From Clostridiales bacterium (GTDB lineage Bacteria; Bacillota; Clostridia; Christensenellales; Aristaeellaceae), in assembly GCA_015056175.1 (NCBI GenBank), contig SVGT01000002.1:62001-126000 (forward strand): DNA of 64,000 nucleotides, written 5' to 3'. Of the stretch, positions 2,295 to 62,195 are shown in pieces (within the stretch, counting starts at the first letter, position 1; each line of letters starts with the position of its first letter). Both the position numbers and the translations under genes were made by a program. Under the pieces are notes generated by a model. It was not told the DNA's origin. It did no database searches and saw only the letters and a list, made by a program, of their open reading frames with translations.

Positions 2295-2484
2295 GCTGTA
2301 CCTCCCATGGGCATAAATTGCTATTTACATTATAATAGGTTTTCTTTTTTCGCGCAATGCTATTTTCAAAGGAGCGTATATCGTGCTATAATAACGTGAG
2401 TTTGTATGCACATGCGCACCGGAGCGGCGGACGTTCTTCTGCCGATCCTGCGGGCAAGGATGTAGGCGAAGACGAGGGACGAAG

Positions 2485-3013
2485 GTGGAACCTTCTTCAG
2501 GTTCCACACCTCCGAACCAGGAGACCAGTCTCCTGGACCTCCCTTATCGACAGGCTTGACTGATGCCATTTCGCCGTCCCGCGACAGGCTGCAACGCCAG
2601 GCATCGATACGGCGATCCGCCGGGCCAGGGCGCGCTTTGCGCGTCTGGCCTCCTTCATCAACCAAGGCAGGGAGCAAATTCATTTGCTCCTGCTCTTGGT
2701 GATGAAGTTCCCGTTTTTCTCCGTGTGCGGAGAAAAACAGCGGATCGCGCAAACTTGTCCTAACTAACCCATTGGCTTTTCCCAAACAAATCGGCATGTA
2801 AACCCCCGCCCTACGCGGCTTTCAGCCGCCATGCGTTCCGAAGGAACGTGCTTCATGTGCCGCATGGCACGCTTCATTCCTTCATTGTTCATTTCGTTTC
2901 CCCTAAATTGTCCCATTGGGAAACAACTGATTCGATAAAACCTGTTTGTCCAATACTGCGGGTGCAGGGTACTCAGTACCCTGCCTCGGGGCGTGGGGGC
3001 GAGCAGCCCCCAC
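2485..3013 (+). repeat. Composite intergenic unit E: reverse twin-hairpin, cloverleaf, forward twin-hairpin
   Basis: GTGGAACCTTCTTCAGGTTCCAC + CCAGGAGACCAGTCTCCTGG on the left; cloverleaf 2612-2748; GCAGGGTACTCAGTACCCTGC + GTGGGGGCGAGCAGCCCCCAC on the right. Confidence 0.8.
2612..2748 (+). repeat. Three-armed cloverleaf repeat, copy E
   Basis: Closing helix GCGATCCGC/GCGGATCGC; arms GGCCAG..CTGGCC, CTTCATCA..TGATGAAG, TTTTTCTCCG-TGTG-CGGAGAAAAA. Confidence 0.85.
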
Positions 3014-3027
3014 ACAAAGGAGTCAAT

Positions 3028-11667: not shown

Positions 11668-11678
11668 TCAGGTTCTTC

Positions 11679-12172
11679 TTGGGGCTTACTCAGCCCCAAA
11701 CCCTGAGGCAGGGTACTGAGTACCCTGCACCCGCAGTGTTGGTCATAGGGTATGGGTAAACGATGGGATTTCCCAATGCAGCAGGTATGAATCAAGTCGA
11801 CTTGGGTGCAGGCCGATCCGACGGCGCAGAGCGCCTTCTTCATCATACCAAGGCAGGGAGCGAATAAATTCGCTCCTGCTCTTGGTTGATGAAGTCCCGG
11901 TTTTTCTCCGTTTACGGAGAAAAACACGGATCGGCCTGTGCATGTTGCTGACGAAAAAAACGAAATGGACAATCCACAATACTGCGGCGGGAACAAGAAA
12001 GCGCCCTACGATGAAAAAACTCCGTCCCTCAACGCCAAACACGTCACGGGACGGAGTTATTTATTGACTTCTTTGCCCCATCGGGAAGTAGTTGGACATT
12101 TCATCCACCTGTGTCCGACACGGCGGGTCAAGGGTGCTCAGCACCCTTGTAGGGGTCCAGGGGGCAACGCCC
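11679..12172 (+). repeat. Composite intergenic unit C
   Basis: Left TTGGGGCTTACTCAGCCCCAA + GCAGGGTACTGAGTACCCTGC; cloverleaf 11809-11940; right CAAGGGTGCTCAGCACCCTTG + GGGGCAACGCCCC. Confidence 0.8.
11809..11940 (+). repeat. Three-armed cloverleaf repeat, copy C
   Basis: CAGGCCGATCCG/CGGATCGGCCTG closing helix, three internal hairpins. Confidence 0.87.
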
Positions 12173-12177
12173 CATGG

Positions 12178-12996
12178 TTACTTGGAAGCAGGGGTGAAGG
12201 TGGGCACGAAGCCGCGTTCCACGATCAGGTCATACACCTTCTGGGTGTAGACGCATTCCTGCAGCGCCTTGACGAAATCGGAGTTTTCGTTCTCGGGCTT
12301 GACGGCGAACAGGTTCACGTAAGCGGCGGCAGCCTGGCTGTCGGCGGGCTCGGCGAAGATGCCGTCCACAGAGGGGTTCAGGTTGGCCAGAGCGGCGTTG
12401 TTGCCGTTGATGACGGCGTAGGCCACGTCAGCGCGCAGGCCGGGGATCTGCTCGGCGTTGGCTTCGATGATCTCCAGGCTGTACACGTTATCCACGATGT
12501 CTTCCTTGGTGACGATGGAATCCAGGGTAGTGCCTTCGGGCAGGGTGATCAGGCCGGCGTCCTGCAGCAGCAGCAGCGCGCGGGTCATGTTGGTGGGATC
12601 GTTGGGGATGGCCACCTTATCGCCGTCGGCAGCAGCTTCCAGGGTGTCCTTGGTGCCCTTGTAGATGGCCAGGGGCTCAAAGTGAGTGGGAACCACGCCC
12701 ACCAGCTTTTCCTTATCGGAAGCGGTCTCGTTGTAGCCGGCCAGATAGGGCACATGCTGGAAGAAGTTGGCAATGGCGTCGCCGCCGGCCACAGCGGGGT
12801 TCTCGGTGACGTAGTCGGTGACCACGGTGATCTCCAGATCAAAGCCCTTGGCCTTCATGTCATCCTTGATCAGCTCCAGGATTTCGGCATGGGGGCTGGG
12901 CGTGGCGATGAGCGCGGTCTTCTTGGGCGCGGCGCAGCCGGCAAACAGGGACGCGGTGAGTACCAGAACCAGGATCAGAGCAAGATACTTTTTCAT
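12178..12996 (-). CDS. metQ: Methionine ABC transporter substrate-binding lipoprotein
   Basis: MKKYLALILVLVLTASLFAGCAAPKK lipobox; NlpA-family fold; downstream of metI/metN. Confidence 0.92.
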   Translation of the reverse strand: MKKYLALILVLVLTASLFAGCAAPKKTALIATPSPHAEILELIKDDMKAKGFDLEITVVTDYVTENPAVAGGDAIANFFQHVPYLAGYNETASDKEKLVGVVPTHFEPLAIYKGTKDTLEAAADGDKVAIPNDPTNMTRALLLLQDAGLITLPEGTTLDSIVTKEDIVDNVYSLEIIEANAEQIPGLRADVAYAVINGNNAALANLNPSVDGIFAEPADSQAAAAYVNLFAVKPENENSDFVKALQECVYTQKVYDLIVERGFVPTFTPASK

Positions 12997-19680: not shown

Positions 19681-20261
19681 TACAGGTCACCTCCACGCAT
19701 GACGGCTTCCTCCCGCCTGTACATCCCAAGGAACGCGCGCAGCGGCGTCATGAGCAGCACCGCCAGCCCTGCGGAATACAAAACGCCCAGCAGCGCACGG
19801 CCGATGTGGCCAAAGGTGATCGCGTTGCCGCTCAGGTACACATACGTCAAGTGCACCGCGTTCATGGAAAAGCACATGCACACCGCGCCCAGCACGATGC
19901 GCACAAGCGCCGGCAAGTCGCCCTGCCTGCGCTCGGGGTGCAGCGATTCCTTGCGCTCGCGACGGCGGTCGGACATGTCTGCAAACACATACGACCAGGC
20001 AAACGTCAAAATGGTATAGCACAGCAAATACAGCCCGCTCACCGAGGACAGCATGCACTCCAGCAGCATGCCGATGATGGCGGCCGCGCAAAAGGCGCTC
20101 TTCATCCCGCAGGACACGATCACAATGGCCAGATATGCCCACAGAATGTTCCCCGTCACGCCGAAAAGGGAAAAGTAATCCATCACGCAGACCTGGATCA
20201 GGTAAAACAGCACTGCGCCCGGAATGACCAGTATGAACTTTCTCAGGGTGGATACTCTCAA
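19677..20261 (-). CDS. mreD: Rod shape-determining protein MreD
   Basis: Small polytopic protein between mreC and PBP2; likely TTG start at 20261 behind AAAGGA. Confidence 0.82.
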   Translation of the reverse strand: MRVSTLRKFILVIPGAVLFYLIQVCVMDYFSLFGVTGNILWAYLAIVIVSCGMKSAFCAAAIIGMLLECMLSSVSGLYLLCYTILTFAWSYVFADMSDRRRERKESLHPERRQGDLPALVRIVLGAVCMCFSMNAVHLTYVYLSGNAITFGHIGRALLGVLYSAGLAVLLMTPLRAFLGMYRREEAVMRGGDLY

Positions 20262-20280
20262 TGCTTTATCCTTTCTCTTT

Positions 20281-20802
20281 GTGGAACCCTCTTCGGGTTC
20301 CACACCTCCGAACAAGGGGCATGATGCCCCTTGACCCGCATTAGTGGTCGGAGAGGAAGTGCTTAGATGATGCGGTTTCCCACTGACAGGTTATGAGCTA
20401 CGGCGATTGTCGGACAGGCCGATCCGGCGGCGCGGAGCGCCTTCTTCATCATACCAAGGCAGGGAGCGAATACATTCGCTCCTGCTCTTGGTTGATGAAG
20501 TCCCGGTTTTTCTCCGTTTACGGAGAAAAACACGGATCGGCCTGTGCATGTTGCCGACAAAAAGATGGAATTGACAATCCTCAGTCACTTCGTGACAGCT
20601 CCTTTGCCAAAGGAGCCTTTGTTGGAAATGCTTGGCTTGTGGACGATGGATACGGGCTGCGGCATGTTACGGCGGCGGGAGCAAGCCCCCGCCCTACATT
20701 GATCATGGGGAAGATGTTTGCTGTGCAGCGTACCTGTGTCCCATACGGCGGGTGCAGGGTACTCAGTACCCTGCCGCAGGTGTGGGGGCGCGCAGCCCCC
20801 AC
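20281..20802 (+). repeat. Composite intergenic unit A (inside the mre operon)
   Basis: Left GTGGAACCCTCTTCGGGTTCCAC + CAAGGGGCATGATGCCCCTTG; cloverleaf 20415-20544; right GCAGGGTACTCAGTACCCTGC + GTGGGGGCGCGCAGCCCCCAC. Confidence 0.82.
20415..20544 (+). repeat. Three-armed cloverleaf repeat, copy A
   Basis: CAGGCCGATCCG/CGGATCGGCCTG; further outer TGTCGG/CCGACA pairing; three internal hairpins. Confidence 0.88.
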
Positions 20803-20882
20803 GAAGGCAGCACTCCTCCGCTTCGTCCCATAGCACGACCTGTCCATGTCGCCCAAATCCTGATTTGGGCGAAAGCGGAGCG

Positions 20883-22448
20883 TTATTCCTCCTCCACCGT
20901 CAGACTGCCCGGATCAAAGGTGGGCGTAGGCTCGGGGGTGGGGGTAGGCGTAGCGGTCGGCTCCGCGGTGGGCGTGCCGCCCAGGTTGTCCGGCGCCTGG
21001 TAGACCAGGTTTTCGGGCTGCTGGGTGGCGTTGGGATCGGGGGTCGCCGTTTCCTCCGGAACCTGGGTAGGCGCGGGGGTCTCGGTGGGCGCGGGCGATT
21101 CGGTGGCGCCCTCATCCGGCGCCTGGGTGGCAAAGCCGCTGTCGCTGCCTACCTGGAAGGTAGGCTGGGGACGGGCGCTCACCAGCGGCTCCAGCGTGGC
21201 GCTGACGCCGGTATCCCGTTCCTGGGCGCTTTCGGCATAGGCGGGCTGATAGCGGTAGACCACCACATACTCCAGATGCTGGAAGTCCACCAGCGGCTCC
21301 ACCACGATGTAGCTCTTGTTTTCATCCATGCCGCGGGTGCTCTCGCGCACCGTGCCGATGGGAATGCCCTTGGGGAATTCCATGCCCACGCCCGAAGTGA
21401 CCACAATATCGCCGGGGCGGGGCAGGCTGTTTTCGGGGAGATAATACATGCGGCAGCGGGCCTGACCGTCAATGCCCAAGGTGCCCTTCACGGCGCCCTG
21501 GTCGCGGGTGGACTGGATCATGCCAAACACGGTGGCGTCGCTGTCGATAATACAACGCACCGAGCAGGTGGTTTCTTCCACGTCATAGGTGTAGCCCACC
21601 AGACCGCCGGCGAACACCACGGCCATATAATCCTTCACGCCGTGCTTGCTTCCCACATTGATGGTCAGCACGGAAAAATAATTGCCCGTGTCATGGCCGA
21701 TCACGTTTGCCGCCAGGGGGTTTAGGTCCGTATTGCGGTTGATCTCGTCCATCAGGTCGTACATATCGTTGATCTGACGCTTGTATTCCTCGGCCATGGC
21801 GGCCTCGCTGGCCAGATCGTCCAGCTTGATGAGCAACTGCTCGTATTCATACTCGATATTGCCCCGCACCTTCAGCGTGCGCAGGTACCCGGCCACGGAC
21901 TCAGTAAGCCCGGAAAACGCCTGCTGCACCGGGGTGATCACGGAGGTGATCACGGTTTTAGGCGTCTGCAGGATGGGCCAATCCACAAAATTGCTGATGA
22001 CCATCACGGCGGCGCACACAAACAGTACCGCCACGATGCCAAAGCCGGCCATGCGGCGGGCGAAGGACTTTTTCTCCTGCGGGCTGGCGGCGCTGCGCTT
22101 GCGCTCTTCCTTTTTCTTTTCCTTGCGGATGCGTTCTTCCTCGCGGCGCTTCTGGGCGCGGCGGGGCGTTTCCCTGTCGCGGCGCAACTGCTCCTGCTGC
22201 TTTTCCTCGTCCGTTTCCACAAAGCGGCGGCCGGAATGGGTGCTGTTGTCCCCCTGACGGGCGGCGCGGCGCCATTCGGCTTCGTCCTGATCCTCCAGGG
22301 CCTGATAGCGGTTCTTCACCTGACGGGACACGCGGGGCGCATCCTCATCCCAGGCGGGAGACACGCGGGTATAGCCGTTTTCATCCTGCGCGGGGGCGTC
22401 CTTTTCGCCCTCGGGCGGGGTGGTAAACAGCCTGTCGTCATCGTACAT
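20883..22448 (-). CDS. mreC: Rod shape-determining protein MreC with long Pro/Thr-rich C-terminal tail
   Basis: MreC beta domain plus PTETPAPTQVPEETATPDPNATQQP...PTPTPEPTPTFDPG tail and charged N-terminal extension. Confidence 0.87.
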   Translation of the reverse strand: MYDDDRLFTTPPEGEKDAPAQDENGYTRVSPAWDEDAPRVSRQVKNRYQALEDQDEAEWRRAARQGDNSTHSGRRFVETDEEKQQEQLRRDRETPRRAQKRREEERIRKEKKKEERKRSAASPQEKKSFARRMAGFGIVAVLFVCAAVMVISNFVDWPILQTPKTVITSVITPVQQAFSGLTESVAGYLRTLKVRGNIEYEYEQLLIKLDDLASEAAMAEEYKRQINDMYDLMDEINRNTDLNPLAANVIGHDTGNYFSVLTINVGSKHGVKDYMAVVFAGGLVGYTYDVEETTCSVRCIIDSDATVFGMIQSTRDQGAVKGTLGIDGQARCRMYYLPENSLPRPGDIVVTSGVGMEFPKGIPIGTVRESTRGMDENKSYIVVEPLVDFQHLEYVVVYRYQPAYAESAQERDTGVSATLEPLVSARPQPTFQVGSDSGFATQAPDEGATESPAPTETPAPTQVPEETATPDPNATQQPENLVYQAPDNLGGTPTAEPTATPTPTPEPTPTFDPGSLTVEEE

Positions 22449-24339: not shown

Positions 24340-25230
24340 GCGCGGAGCCGCGCCGGGCAGCGGCTGCGCCGAATGAAGCCGCGGCAAAGCCGCTAATGAA
24401 TAATGAAGCGTGCCTGCGGCACATGATGCACGTTCCTTCGGAACGCATGATGATTGGTTACCCACTGTAGGGCGGGGGCTTGCATGCCGCAGTGACTTGA
24501 TGATACAACGAACTTCGATCCTTTGCGAAACAAACCTCGCCAAAAGGCCCCCTTGTGAAAGGGGGCTCCCGTGGAACGGGTGGGGGATTGTGAAATTGAC
24601 TTAAATCGACAATCCCACCACCGCAAGCGGTCCCCCTCCCTTTGACAAGGGAGGCTGAACCCCGTCCCTCGACAGGAGGCAATGCGCAGACGGGGGGTAA
24701 TCGGGCGCGCAGCCGCGCCTACCCATGTCGACCAACTTGACTTATCCCATTTCCCCGTCCCCCGACATGTCACAGCCAGTATTCATCGCCCACACAACAA
24801 ACACACTCAACCAAAAGGCCCCTTAGGCAAAGGGGCTCCCGCGTAGCGGGTGGGGATTGTCTCGAACAGCAAAACAAGCATGTAACTTAGGACAATCCTC
24901 AGTCACTACGTGACAGCTCCTTTGCCAAAGGAGCCTTTGATGTAGTATGGTGATTGTGTAATCGATGTTTGTGGATGGGTAATGGGGCTTGCCCCCGCCC
25001 TACCGCAGCAGGCAAACCGCAATGTGTTCCGCAGGAACACGCTTCATGTGCCGCAGGCACGCTTCATTCTTCATTCTTCATTCTTCATTCTTCATTCGGC
25101 GCAGCCGCCGCCCCCGCCCTACCACAGCAGGCAAACTGCAATGTGTTCCGCAGGAACACGCTTCATTCTTCATTCTTCATTCTTCATTCTTCATTCTTCA
25201 TTCGGCGGAGCCACCGCCCCTTCCCCATAC
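24340..25230. repeat. Mosaic of REP-like hairpins, tandem TTCATTC repeats and inverted repeat pairs
   Basis: CCCCCTTGTGAAAGGGGG..GGGGGATTG facing CAATCCCACC..CCTCCCTTTGACAAGGGAGG; ATGCGTTCC/GGAACGC and GTGCCGCAGGCAC hairpins; (TTCATTC)n. Confidence 0.8.
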
Positions 25231-31550: not shown

Positions 31551-32297
<747 letters not shown>

Positions 32298-32533
32298 GGG
32301 AAGGGGCGCTGCCCCCTCCACCCCTGCACGGGGAACTGAGTCCCCCGTGACCCCCGCATTTTCGACCATCTTGAATCGAAAAGTCACCCCGTCCCCCGAC
32401 ATGCTTGGTGTTGAGGGACGGGGTTTTTCTTTGGGGCTATCCGCCCCAAACCCTGACAAGGGGCATGATGCCCCTTGTGGGGTGAAGGGGTGAAACCCCT
32501 TCAAAAGCCCCCCGTAAACGTTCCCATCGCGAC

Positions 32534-34949: not shown

Positions 34950-35477
34950 GTATGGGGCTATCCGCCCTTCGTGGAACCCTGTTCGGGTTCCACACCTCCG
35001 AACAAGGGGCCTGAGGCCCCTTGACCCGCAGTATTGGTCTGACTTGTGTTATCGATTAAGTTGTTTCCCAATGCGACAACCGCGTAGGGCACTTTCTTGC
35101 TCCCGCCGTTTTTGGGTTTGGGAAAAATCCTGTTACTTTAGTATCGCCCGATCCGCCCGGCCAGCCTGCGCTTTGCGCGGCTGCGCCTTCTTCATCATAC
35201 CAAGGCAGGGAGCGAATACATTCGCTCCTGCTCTTGGTTGATGAAGTCCCGGTTTTTCTCCGCATACGGAGAAAAACAGCGGATCGGTCTATGCATGCTG
35301 CCGACTGATGAATGAAATCATCAATCCCCCACCGCTACGCGGAGCCCCCTTTAACAAGGGAGCCTTTGGATACGCTTCATGGGGAGGATGTTTGCTATGC
35401 GGCGCACCTATGTCCCACACAGCGAGGTCCAGGAGGGTCACCCTCCTGGTCAGGGCGTGGGGCGGACAGCCCCACAA
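34950..35477 (+). repeat. Composite intergenic unit D
   Basis: Left GTGGAACCCTGTTCGGGTTCCAC + CAAGGGGCCTGAGGCCCCTTG; cloverleaf 35148-35287; right CCAGGAGGGTCACCCTCCTGG + GTGGGGCGGACAGCCCCAC. Confidence 0.8.
35148..35287 (+). repeat. Three-armed cloverleaf repeat, copy D
   Basis: CCGATCCGC/GCGGATCGG closing helix; CAGCC-TGCGC..GCGCG-GCTG arm; shared long arm; TTTTTCTCCG-CATA-CGGAGAAAAA. Confidence 0.85.
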
Positions 35478-35537
35478 AGACAGCCCCACAAAAAAACCGT
35501 CACCTGACACGCAGCATGCCAGATGACGGGGTCACTT

Positions 35538-37268: not shown

Positions 37269-37289
37269 ATTGCTGCTCCTTTCTTTGTG

Positions 37290-37867
37290 GGGGCTGCTCG
37301 CCTTCGTGGAACCCTCTTCGGGTTCTTTGTGGGGGCTACTCGCCCACCACACCCCTCGGCAGGGGGATGATCCCCCTGCACCCACAGTAGTGGTCGGAGG
37401 AGTCCGCTTAGATGATGCGGTTTCCCACTGACAGATTAAGGGAACCAGTCGACTTGGGTGCAGGCCGATCCGGCGGCGCGGAGCGCCTTCTTCTTCTGAT
37501 AAAGGACGGGCGAGAAAACTCGTTTTCTCCCCGCCTTTACAGAAGAAGTCCCGGTTTTTCTCCGTTTACGGAGAAAAACACGGATCGGCCTGTGCATGTT
37601 GCCGACAAAAAAACGGAATGAACAATCCCTCCGGCGCTCCGCGCCACCTCCCTTTCACAAGGGAGGCTTAGGCTGGGTGAACAGCTTGGGCAATCGAGGT
37701 TTGTATTTGCAACATGTCGCAGGACGGGGTCATTGTCCAAGTCAACATTGTTGATATGGGAAGCAGGAGTGGGAGGTTGCCTGAAAAAGTGTCCAACATT
37801 GTCCACCATGGTGGGTGCAGGGAGATCATCTCCCTGCCTCAGGGTGTGGGGCTGAGCAAGCCCCACA
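37290..37867 (+). repeat. Composite intergenic unit B
   Basis: Left CTTTGTGGGGGCTGCTCGCC... + GCAGGGGGATGATCCCCCTGC; cloverleaf 37461-37592; right GCAGGGAGATCATCTCCCTGC + GTGGGGCTGAGCAAGCCCCAC. Confidence 0.8.
37461..37592 (+). repeat. Three-armed cloverleaf repeat, copy B (long arm diverged)
   Basis: Same closing helix as copies A and C; long arm replaced by CTTCTTCTG..TAAAGG..CGGG..GAGAAAA/TTTTCTC..CCCG..CCTTTA..CAGAAGAAG, fully paired. Confidence 0.88.
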
Positions 37868-37999
37868 TAAACGCCCCACATATCTCCGCCATATCCCCTT
37901 CATTATACCTTCCCTCCGCCCCCTTCGTCAACCGGAAACCCTTGCATCGCCGCGGGGTTTGCCTTATAATGGAAGCAATAAAGATTGGAGGCGTTTTGT

Positions 38000-45124: not shown

Positions 45125-45949
45125 ATGAAGCACAAGGAGCGCAGCGGGTTTCTCACCTATCATGACGACGCCATGGTGGCCATGCGGTGCCTGAGCGACG
45201 CGCAATTGGGGCAATTGTACCGGGCGCTGTTCACGGCGTCGGTTGGAGAAAAAGTGGCCGACGATACGCTGGACAGCATCGTGCTGCCCATGTTTCTGCT
45301 CATGCGCAACAAGATCGACCGGGACGCGCAGAAGTATGAGGAGATTTGCGAAAAAAGGCGGAGCAGCGCCTCATCCCGCTTCCATAAGTCGGCTGATGAC
45401 AAAAGCACCCTGCAAGTGCATGCAAATGCAGAGAACTGCATGCAAGAAGTGCCAACCAAAACCGTAACCGAAAGGGAAACCGAAACTGTACCCGTAACCG
45501 AAAGGGAAAGGGAAAGCGTAACCGAAAGGGAAACTGAATGCGCATCCTGCGCGGACAGGGAGGACGCCCCCGCGACAGGTGAAACGGCGTCCGGGGATGC
45601 TTTCCCGTCTGCACGGGAGGACGCGTTCACGCCGCCCACCCTGCAGGAGGTGCAGCAGCAGGCGCTGGTGCTGGGCAGCGTGCCATCCGGCGAGCAGTTT
45701 TATCACTACTACGCCGCCCGGGGCTGGAAGATGGGCGCCGGGCGTATGCATGACTGGCCATCCGCGCTGCGCTACTGGGTGACCAAAGACCTCCGGCGGG
45801 AAAAACCGGGCGCGCCCCCGCGCGCACCCCGTCAGGTCAGCGCCCAGATGTACACCCAGCGGCAGTACACCGAGCAGGATCTGGACGCCGATTCCATGCA
45901 GCTGTTCAAGGAGGCGGAAATGCTGCAGCGGACAGCGGGAGCGAGATAG
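45125..45949 (+). CDS. DUF6291-like / phage-type replication protein with TERETE repeats
   Basis: MKHKERSGFLTYHDDAMVAMRCLSDAQLGQLYRALF N-terminus; low-complexity TERETE stretch; C-terminal YTQRQYTEQDL tail shared with the DnaD protein. Confidence 0.65.
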   Translation: MKHKERSGFLTYHDDAMVAMRCLSDAQLGQLYRALFTASVGEKVADDTLDSIVLPMFLLMRNKIDRDAQKYEEICEKRRSSASSRFHKSADDKSTLQVHANAENCMQEVPTKTVTERETETVPVTERERESVTERETECASCADREDAPATGETASGDAFPSAREDAFTPPTLQEVQQQALVLGSVPSGEQFYHYYAARGWKMGAGRMHDWPSALRYWVTKDLRREKPGAPPRAPRQVSAQMYTQRQYTEQDLDADSMQLFKEAEMLQRTAGAR

Positions 45950-45997: not shown

Positions 45998-46680
45998 GAT
46001 CACCCACAAAACACCCCCAACCAAAAAGCCCCCTTGTGAAAGGGTGACGGAGCCGAAGCGCGCCCAGTGGGCGATGCAGCGAGGCGGAGGAATCAACCGA
46101 AACGAGCAATGCGCCGGCAGGCGCAGGGCGACGATTGAGGTTGCGGATCGCTCCGCGTAGCGGTGGGGGATTGCATCACGGAAGGTTGTTGACAATCCCT
46201 CCGGCGCTCCGCGCCACCTCCCTTTAACAAGGGAGGCTTTGTCGGGTGTGTTTGGTGATGGATCGATGATTGTTATTGTAGCATGTCGGGGGACGGAGCG
46301 ACGGAACAAGTCAAGTGTATCGACATTGCCCGGCGGCGGGAGCAAGCCCCCGCCCTACAGCAGTTGACAAACTGCCATGCGTTCCGAAGGAACGCGCTTC
46401 ATGTGCCGCAGGCACGCTTCATTCCTTCATTAGCGGCTTTGCCGCGCCTTCATTCGGCGCAGCCGTAGCCCCCGCCCTACAGTGGATAACAAACTGTCAT
46501 GCGTTCCGAAGGAACGCGCTTCATGTGCCGCAGGCACGCTTCATTCCTTCATTTTTCATTCGGCGCTGCCGCTGCCCCCGCCCTACAGCAGTTGACAAAC
46601 TGCCATGCGTTCCGAAGGAACGCGCTTCATGTGCCGCAGGCACGCTTCATTTCTTCATTCTTCATTCGGCACTGCCGCTG
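45998..46680. repeat. Repeat mosaic: REPIN-like inverted pair with internal insertion, then a tandem hairpin array
   Basis: 46020-46240 inverted pair; 46360-46680 about 2.5 units of ATGCGTTCCGAAGGAACGCGCTTCATGTGCCGCAGGCACGCTTCATT. Confidence 0.82.
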
Positions 46681-49315: not shown

Positions 49316-49319
49316 CCTC

Positions 49320-49925
49320 GTTCCTTCAGAACGCATGACAGTTTGTTGACCACTGTAGGGCGGGGGCTTGCTCCCGCCGCCGGGCGGCGCAACGCGCCGA
49401 ATGAAGGAATGAAAAATGAAGCGTGCCTGCGGCACATGAAGCACGTTCCTTCGGAACGCATGATGATTGGTTACCCACTGTAGGGCGGGGACTTGCATGC
49501 CGCAGTAACTTGATGATACAACGAGCTTCGATCCTTTGCGAAGCATACCCGCCAAAAGGCCCCCTTGTGAAAGGGGGCTCCGCGTAGCGGTGGGGGATTG
49601 TTCATTGACTCGCATCTGCAATCCCACCACCGCAAGCGGTCCCCCTCCCTTTGACAAGGGAGGCATTATGAAGCACGTTCCTTCGGAACGCATAATGATT
49701 GGTTACCCACTGTAGGGCGGGGGCTTGCTCCCGCCGCCGGGCAATATCGACCGGCTTGACTTGTACAATCCCTCCGGCGCTCCGCGCCACCTCCCTTTCA
49801 CAAGGGAGGCTTAACCCCGTCCCCCAACGTGTTGCAATAACAATCATCGATCAATCGCAAACACCTCCAACCAAAAGGCCCCCTTGTGAAAGGGGGCTCC
49901 GCGTAGCGGTGGGGGATTGCCATTT
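49320..49925. repeat. Repeat mosaic with REPIN-like inverted pairs
   Basis: Repeated CCCCCTTGTGAAAGGGGGCTCCGCGTAGCGGTGGGGGATTG and inverse forms; GTAGGGCGGGGGCTTGCTCCCGCCG hairpins. Confidence 0.8.
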
Positions 49926-50070
49926 GACTAATGCATCCCCCGCCCCCCAACCCGACCTTATCTCCCTCCTTATAAGGCCCCGGCGAGCGATCGTCGGGGT
50001 TCTTTCTTTGCGCTTGCATTGCGCTGTCAATGCAAGTATAATGAAAATACCCTGACATACGGAGGCGTAT

Positions 50071-54119: not shown

Positions 54120-55245
54120 TTCCCTCCAACCAGGCGGGCGCGGAGGCGCGCCTACCCGTGTCGACGAACTCGATTTGTGAAATCACCCCGTCCCGCGACA
54201 TGCCGCAGCCAGCAACCATCGCCCACACAACAAACACATGCGACAAAGGCTCCTTTGGCAAAGGAGCTCCCGCGCAGCGGGTGAGGATTGTCATCCTCGG
54301 GCGCGGAGGCGCGCCTACCCATGTCGACCGGCTTGGCTTGCATCATCTCCCCGTCCCCCGGGCGCGAGCCGCGCCAACCCATGTCGACGAACTCGACTTG
54401 TGAAATCACCCCGTCCCCCGACATGCTGCTTATGTAGGGCGGGGGCTTGCTCCCGCCGGACGCGGAGCAACTTAACAGCACACCAAACTTCGATCACCCA
54501 ACAAACACACCCAACCAAAAGGCTCCTTTGGCAAAGGAGCTCCCGCGCAGCGGGTGAGGATTGTCATCCCCCGGGCGCGAGCCGCGCCAACCCGTGTCGG
54601 CCAACTTGACTTGTGCAATCCCACCACCGCAAGCGGTCCGATCCGCAACCTCAATCGTCGCCCTGCGCCTACCGGCGCATTGCTCGTTTCGGTTGATTCC
54701 TCCGCCTCGCTTCATCCGCCACCGGCGGCGCTTCGGCTCCGTCACCTTTCACAAGGGAGGCTTAATCCCATCCCCCAACATGTTTCCTATCGCCGGACAG
54801 GGTTTTCCTGTAGGGCGGGGGCTTGCATGCCACAGTAACTTAATGGCACAACAAACTGCGATCAATCATCAAACAAGCCCACCCAAAAGGCCCCCTTGTG
54901 AAAGGGGGCTCCGCGTAGCGGTGGGGGATTGCTCTTTCGTCGGTTGGCAAATCGATGATTGTAGCAGCATCATGCTGCATCGGCGGGAGTAAACCCCCGC
55001 CCTACAGCGGCTTACAGCCGCCATGCGTTCCGCAGGAACGCGCTTCATGTGCCGCAGGCACGCTTCATTCCTTCATTCTTCATTCGGCGCAGCCGCTGCA
55101 TCGGCGGGAGTAAACCCCCGCCCTACGTTGAAAAGAAAAACCCCGTCCCGGACAACAAACATGTCGGGGGACGGGGAAATGATACAGGTCAAGCTGGTCG
55201 ACATGGGGAGGCGCGGCTCGCGCCTTCATTCGGCGCAGCCGCTCC
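54120..55245. repeat. About 1.1 kb repeat mosaic between rpsR and a LysM gene
   Basis: Several copies of CATGTCGACNAACTTGACTTGTNNNATCNCCCCGTCCCCCGACATG, REP-like hairpins and ATGCGTTCC modules, no credible ORF. Confidence 0.82.
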
Positions 55246-61512: not shown

Positions 61513-61680
61513 AGGCGCTCCGCTTTCGCCCCAAATCAGGATTTGGGGCGATTTTCTTTTCAACGTAGGGCGGGGGCTTGCTCCCGCCGCCGGGCTGTGC
61601 CCGCCTCCAATGTCGACCAACTCGACCTGCACCCTTCCCCCGTCCCCCGACATGCTGCGTGTCGCCGGACGGGGCTTTAT

Positions 61681-62195
61681 TGTGGGGGCTACGCGCCCCC
61701 ACACCTGCGGCAGGGGAATGATTCCCCTGCACCCGCCGTATCGGACACAGGGATATGAACTGTCCAACTGTTTGCCGATGAAGCAAGAATAACAATAAAA
61801 GCACCCCATCTCGCAACACAACCCCATCCATCGATACGGCGATCCGCCCGGCCAGGGCGCGCTTTGCGCGTCTGGCCTCCTTCATCGATCCAAGCCGTGG
61901 AGAGAATGTATTCTCTCCCGGTCTTGGTCGATGAAGTTCCCGTTTTTTCCGTAAACGGAAAAAACTGCGGATCGCTCAAACATGTCCCAACTAATCCATT
62001 GACTTTTTCAAAACAAAAACGGCGGGAGTAAACCCCCGCCCTACAGCACTTGTCCCATTGGGAAACATCTGCATCGATCAAGCCTGTCTGTCCAATACTG
62101 CAGGTCCAGGAGGCTCAGCCTCCTGGTCGGGGTTTGGGGCAGATCGCCCCAAGAAAAGCCCCAAGAAGAACCCGAACAGGCTTCCACAAACGCGA
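61681..62195 (+). repeat. Composite intergenic unit F
   Basis: Left GTGGGGGCTACGCGCCCCCAC + GCAGGGGAATGATTCCCCTGC; cloverleaf 61839-61975; right CCAGGAGGCTCAGCCTCCTGG + TTGGGGCAGATCGCCCCAA. Confidence 0.8.
61839..61975 (+). repeat. Three-armed cloverleaf repeat, copy F
   Basis: GCGATCCGC/GCGGATCGC; arm GGCCAGGGCGCGCTTTGCGCGTCTGGCC; arm CTTCATCGA..TCCAAG..CCG.GGAGAGAA/TTCTCTCC.CGG..CTTGG..TCGATGAAG; TTTTTTCCG-TAAA-CGGAAAAAA. Confidence 0.86.

Follow-up and report, generated by a model that had tools for sequence, protein, structure and literature searches.

REP sequences and their BIME and REPIN arrangements are intergenic palindromes found in inverted pairs. They are non-autonomous, preserve their hairpins and form intragenomic populations of tens of dispersed copies. 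The units described here share all of these properties. They are dispersed, structured and protein-free, missing from orthologous sites in a sister species, homogenised within each species and biased in orientation in the source genome. A hallmark of REPs is the tetranucleotide GT[AG]G at the hairpin foot (PMC6006769). This motif is absent from the feet of the unit hairpins (alignment A2), which read GCGGGT before one hairpin of the end module, hp2, and usually GGGGT or GGTGT before the other, hp1. The units also differ from REPs in having paired hairpins at each end and a cloverleaf in the middle, and in a length of 0.5 kb versus ~0.1 kb.

A second difference concerns the enzyme. The Y1_Tnp domain (PF01797) was not detected in the source genome G000 (a MAG of 2.0 Mb, 60 contigs, 91% complete) or in G001 (87% complete), a sister species and the sole same-genus genome among the relatives searched; at this completeness a Y1 gene could have escaped detection, but hardly in every carrier. 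PF01797 went undetected in 9/11 carrier genomes, and in the 2/11 that have it no ends lie nearby. These results do not support a Y1 transposase as the partner, and the co-occurring RAYT suggested in the preliminary description was not found. The unit works like a REP/BIME, yet departs from REPs in two defining features, the hairpin foot and the Y1 enzyme.

IS200/IS605 elements combine Y1 with non-inverted subterminal hairpin ends. Their derivatives resemble the units in having subterminal hairpins and, for the units in G000, in a replication-related orientation bias; the unit ends however are inverted copies, with no Y1 transposase and no internal ORF. The TIRtrons, or TIRYT repeats, are long inverted repeats at the termini of their elements. 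Some of them are double palindromes and some have a G4 motif; they are dispersed as dimers and flank a tyrosine transposase gene, with the consensus GGGGWSAS (PMC3733652). The units share the long terminal inverted repeats, but GGGGWSAS is only loosely like their GGGGT and no tyrosine transposase gene is linked to them. Bacillus bcr1 is a small dispersed repeat of Firmicutes with a modular or structured design. The pneumococcal BOX, RUP and SPRITE repeats are likewise small, modular or structured and dispersed (PMC3049150). All of these repeats are shorter than the units, and they are not known to have a four-way core between inverted twin-hairpin ends.

At gathering thresholds Rfam found in the window a tRNA only and no family for the units, in line with the preliminary description, which had recognised no named family. 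None of the Rfam RNA families, group II introns, HEARO and Clostridiales-2 included, reaches its gathering threshold on the units. The best sub-threshold match was RF02937 (Clostridiales-2); it scored 22-24.5 bits, the gathering score being 58.6. Only hp2 (GGGUGCAGGGG..CCCCUGCCG) really aligns, with the first hairpin of that family. A tRNA or tmRNA identity was rejected, ARAGORN giving one tRNA-Ser only. A partial search of the literature found no description of such a composite. The units are probably best understood as a non-autonomous, REP/BIME-like palindromic element with a cloverleaf core that spreads at the replication fork via folded single strands, using an enzyme supplied in trans.

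Architecture of the units

The window, the whole stretch of 64,000 nucleotides analysed, corresponds to bases 62001-126000 of G000 contig C26. It contains six cloverleaf units (E, C, A, D, B and F; Table 1), all with the core on the + strand, spaced 2-24 kb apart among housekeeping genes. Integron attC cassettes form tandem arrays accompanied by an IntI integrase. Each is ~0.45-0.6 kb long and consists of a core of 124-142 nt with an inverted twin-hairpin end module on each side, the left one reversed and the right one forward. The preliminary description had claimed six cloverleaf copies framed in this way, and both the copies and their modules were seen in 6/6. Every core folds as a four-way junction formed by a closing stem and three arms. 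The claimed absence of an encoded protein inside the units was upheld. The outer tips, given earlier as CTTTGTGG...CCACAAAG, are more variable; CTTTGTGG occurs left of A and B, and CCACAAAG right of D. Similarly, the joining segment said to be shared, TTTCCCAATG, is literal in C and D and replaced by variants in the other units.

Each end module has, in order, a linker of type GTCCAATACTGCGGGT, hp2 with the loop TCA, a short GGGGT-like linker and hp1, which comes in three or more interchangeable types. In layout the left and right modules are reverse complements, and the two ends of one unit often differ in hairpin type. Cores and ends were searched with covariance models, R1 for the core and R2 for the end. 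The left end of unit E scores weakly with R2 because its linker is degenerate, and some ends were missed because an element of ~115 bp sits in the hp2 loop. This small repeat, with the motif CAACCGAAACGAGC...GACGATTGAGGTTG, was seen at L017 ~1730-1850, L010, L002 and L184 and in the window at ~46093 (+) and ~54.7 kb (-). It lies inside the hp2 loop of several units, is present too in a rumen genome with the second core type described below, and in the window is nested in another palindromic family.

Table 1. Positions of unit components and solitary ends in the window
Feature	Position	Strand	Evidence and remarks
Unit E left twin-hairpin end	2481..2556	-	R2 match, weak
Unit E cloverleaf core	2611..2749	+	R1
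Unit E right twin-hairpin end	2943..3017	+	R2; empty site G001 C55:5989-6111
Unit C left twin-hairpin end	11675..11749	-	R2
Unit C cloverleaf core	11812..11935	+	R1
Unit C right twin-hairpin end	12108..12181	+	R2; empty site G001 C55:14475-14575
Unit A left twin-hairpin end, inverted	20277..20354	-	R2 covariance model match, C26:82277-82354 -
Unit A cloverleaf core	20418..20541	+	A1/R1
Unit A right twin-hairpin end	20733..20806	+	R2; empty site G001 C55:22649-22731
Solitary twin-hairpin ends without core	32295..32506	two reverse, one forward, partly overlapping	R2: C26:94295-94372 -, 94426-94477 -, 94438-94506 +
Unit D left twin-hairpin end	34967..35044	-	R2
Unit D cloverleaf core	35147..35288	+	R1, best match
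Unit D right twin-hairpin end	35407..35479	+	R2
Unit B left twin-hairpin end	37325..37400	-	R2; half-hairpins further out at ~37284-37324 (sequence)
Unit B cloverleaf core, A/C scaffold with different long arm	37464..37589	+	R1; alignment
Unit B right twin-hairpin end	37796..37870	+	R2; empty site G001 C114:13675-13764
Unit F left twin-hairpin end	61678..61751	-	R2
Unit F cloverleaf core	61838..61976	+	R1
Unit F right twin-hairpin end	62085..62158	+	R2

The units occupy convergent, divergent and co-directional gaps alike, the flanking genes that were tested being housekeeping- or transport-like, and some ends begin no more than a few nucleotides from a stop codon. Unit A directly adjoins mreC (window 20255-20883) and probably lies between mreC and mreD of one operon; the naming of mreD is a guess, the gene having no Pfam match. 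Copies of other short palindromic families are found in the middles of units, and the rest of the unit is not lost. Such intergenic repeat families, unrelated to the units yet nested in their middles, also cluster at window 24395-25196, 46026-46660, 49319-49929 and 54193-55224. Overlapping 12-bp repeats resembling AAACCGAAAGGG occur at 45459-45561.

Empty sites and concerted evolution

Synteny with the window, at 72-86% identity, is seen in two G001 contigs, C55 and C114. The homologous flanks of unit E are 122 bp apart in G001 and 705 bp apart in G000; the distances are 100 versus 537 bp for C, 82 versus 640 bp for A and 89 versus 661 bp for B. These clean empty sites mean that the four units move or moved; the region of unit D is rearranged in G001. 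The preliminary description had read the unit as a non-autonomous mobile one and had pointed to empty sites in sister strains as a check. That reading gains support from the four sites, the 18 dispersed copies in G000 and the lack of an internal protein, and non-autonomous mobility can be held with high confidence. The G001 copies tend to sit at contig ends, as expected because repeats break assembly.

By eye no obvious direct repeat is seen at the unit tips, and the intergenic remnants of the two species are too diverged to align for exact tips or a target duplication. At some sites (D, F and two RUG14706 loci) the flanks look like the arms of a split hairpin. Hairpin-loop targeting as a general rule was rejected, the best flank complementarity being 5.58 bp versus 5.20 bp for mismatched pairs (40 units). 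Local hopping was rejected as well; on C26 similarity does not drop as copies lie further apart (Mantel p=0.30). Plasmid and phage collections contained nothing matching unit D, and the end pattern occurs in only four viral contigs.

The units have several features of a MITE. They are short, non-coding and intergenic, inverted ends are present on all of them, and empty sites exist. A conventional MITE would derive by internal deletion from a cut-and-paste DDE transposon and move as double-stranded DNA, with long terminal inverted repeats in which the palindromes are incidental. Such an origin is unlikely. First, the hairpin types at the two ends of one unit often differ, so the ends are not kept complementary to each other. 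Second, no target duplication was seen, the flanks being too diverged between species to read. Third, no transposase gene is enclosed by these ends among the inverted pairs examined, nor was a transposase-sized ORF seen among the pairs read in a partial search. Finally, the strict keeping of pairs within each hairpin would be left unexplained.

The 18 cores of G000 and the 10 of G001 are separated by a single branch with support 99/100, forming one clade per genome. At a site shared by the two species (G000 C15:37067; G001 C76 and C112) the flanks on either side have 88-90% identity, whereas the cores are only 0.60-0.63 identical; the G000 core at this site is 0.96 identical to its best paralog in the same genome. 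The unit there has opposite orientations in G000 and G001. Core identity is low too at a second shared site (G000 C35:66443, G001 C3), of which one flank is known. The cores are homogenised within each species, that is, they undergo concerted evolution, and replacement, conversion or repeated insertion at one site would each yield this pattern. Within G000 the core arms mix as modules. In core B, P1, P2 and P4 match those of A and C but the long arm is another; core D combines the long arm of A with a P2 unlike that of A. An inversion of ~23 kb distinguishes G000 C35:50.1-73.2 kb from G001 C52 and C95, and one of its G001 breakpoints carries a unit.

Folded structure and orientation

The six-copy core alignment has 42 consensus pairs, 7 of them with changes on both sides. 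In hp2 (23 end sequences) pairing is found in 100% of cells, 8/10 pairs have changed on both sides and G.U occurs in 1/230 cells. Shuffled and slid controls come nowhere near these statistics. Over 28 cores from the two species G.U amounts to 41/1548 pairs on the core (+) strand versus 10/1522 on the - strand. Two RNA controls from G000, one tRNA and one T-box folded identically, gave 2/28 and 15/69. The abundance of compensatory changes with almost no G.U favours selection on folded DNA over RNA, and indicates either DNA hairpins or a copying mechanism by which palindromes stay perfect. The slight wobble excess on the core strand and the low number of RNA controls are reservations to the DNA-hairpin reading. 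The compensatory changes in both ends and core bear out the earlier view that these are kept as secondary structure. Its alternatives of a retrotransposed unit or RNA cassette are made less likely by helices nearly free of G.U.

If the unit were nevertheless a multiplied structured RNA cassette, a small RNA or a 3' or 5' UTR regulator, the cloverleaf would function in RNA form, and the twin hairpins would terminate transcription in both directions or stabilise the RNA. Compensatory changes would be expected of such a cassette, and the weak strand preference of the wobble pairs (41 versus 10), the ends that start a few bases from a stop codon and the below-cut-off resemblance of the hp2 region to Clostridiales-2 are in line with it. 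G.U however is far rarer than in the G000 RNA controls, a U tract is absent from the ends checked, the units sit in gaps of every gene arrangement, and other repeats are inserted mid-unit with the remainder retained. An RNA cassette is accordingly given little credence.

Orientation is biased in G000. Contig C26 makes up 7% of the genome but holds 10/18 copies (p=7e-8), and 10/10 of its cores are on the + strand. The raw GC skew within 15 kb places 17/18 cores on the locally C-rich strand; a two-sided sign test for orientation agreement (16/17) gave p=0.0003. With local GC3 (third-codon-position) skew corrected for gene strand, 15/18 agree, one of the misses being zero. In G001 the contig-level skew agrees with core orientation at ~6/8 loci. 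At 10 loci the genes to either side of the unit are codirectional with the core and at 3 they run against it, and gene direction is a partial confounder of the bias. These data suggest that core orientation is linked to replication direction in G000. IS608 and ISDra2 target the lagging strand template (PMC6006769), which makes a replication-linked process a natural reading of the orientation. Counting against the fork reading, the few wobble pairs favour the + strand, but a lagging template would expose the other strand. The site at which G000 and G001 carry the unit in opposite orientations counts against it too. Orientation of the second core type is mixed, and the skew in those genomes is almost nil, too weak to judge.

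The shared orientation on C26, the crowding of copies there and the agreement with GC skew would also suit a host chromosome-organising or fork-polarity signal selected in one orientation. Such a signal is highly improbable given that the units are missing from orthologous sites of the sister species, that R1 found the core in 0 of 99 other relatives and that a shared site carries the unit in opposite orientations.

Linkage of ends and cores, wider family and proposed mechanism

R1 gave 18 core matches in G000 and 10 in G001, and R2 gave 47 end matches in G000 at E<0.001. Zones within 650 bp of cores constitute 1.2% of G000. At least one outward end lies in this distance at 18/18 cores, and both ends at 15/18; 37/47 end matches are beside a core and 0 point inward. 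The preliminary description had held that independent, random occurrence of ends and cores would count against a unit; genome-wide they are not independent. A chance pile-up of separate short palindromic repeats mimicking a unit, conceivable in a region rich in several other palindromic families, is rejected as having next to no probability, since outward ends at all 18 cores with none reversed exclude chance association and the same composite recurs in G001 and, around a different core, in further genera. Ends also occur apart from cores, as an inverted pair at C6:26093-26395 and in tandem on C35.

R2 ends were found in 30/201 relatives, spanning 17 genera of three families. A second cloverleaf type lies between the same ends in other Clostridia, including several rumen MAGs; it has P1 CTTCTGGCCC, followed by GGCGGC, CCCGGATGC and a long arm. 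In this core 14/50 pairs have changes on both sides. It is present in 7/201 relatives (4 genera), and eight genomes have 19-78 matches each, some of which may be opposite-strand matches of one place. In the G134 and RUG563 stretches most cores of the second type are flanked by outward ends. G031 has units with two inverted cloverleaves. In one such unit of 1.4 kb the insert between the two cloverleaves includes a short ORF (L087, G031:C89 ~8024-8105 in contig coordinates) whose product, MTVTEILQLLSLLATVVLVVVTAIKK, is hydrophobic and resembles a small type I toxin. The end pattern alone, GCGGGTCCAGGGNNNTCANNNCCCTGG then GGGGTCCAGGGGC.., was found in Magnetococcales, Acetobacteraceae, Roseomonas and Rhodospirillales (L144, L147, L126, L145, L160, L163), where it may be either related or convergent. 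A search of the named genomes for the exact core pattern found none.

In the REP/BIME-like element favoured here, the two inverted twin-hairpin ends would be the structures recognised at the termini, and the cloverleaf core would be a third structured DNA element. At the replication fork the hairpins may form in single-stranded DNA, and a putative nuclease supplied in trans would cut and join them. This nuclease appears not to be the usual Y1 (RAYT) transposase. For the single-strand, replication-linked part of the model the chances are evenly balanced. Only tentatively can the units be placed in a mobile DNA class of their own, one that moves as folded single strands at the fork without Y1 and has twin-hairpin recognition ends, interchangeable cloverleaf cores, arms swapped as modules and homogenisation per species.

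Small palindromic repeats that lack a transposase are common, and this element is large and structurally rich enough for testing how they spread. One family unites three structured modules, wobble-free covariation, empty sites, orientation matching GC skew and concerted evolution, and a related design is found in several genera of gut Clostridia, in dozens of copies. The units may account for assembly breaks in these MAGs, and they would add the cloverleaf to the DNA folds under selection.
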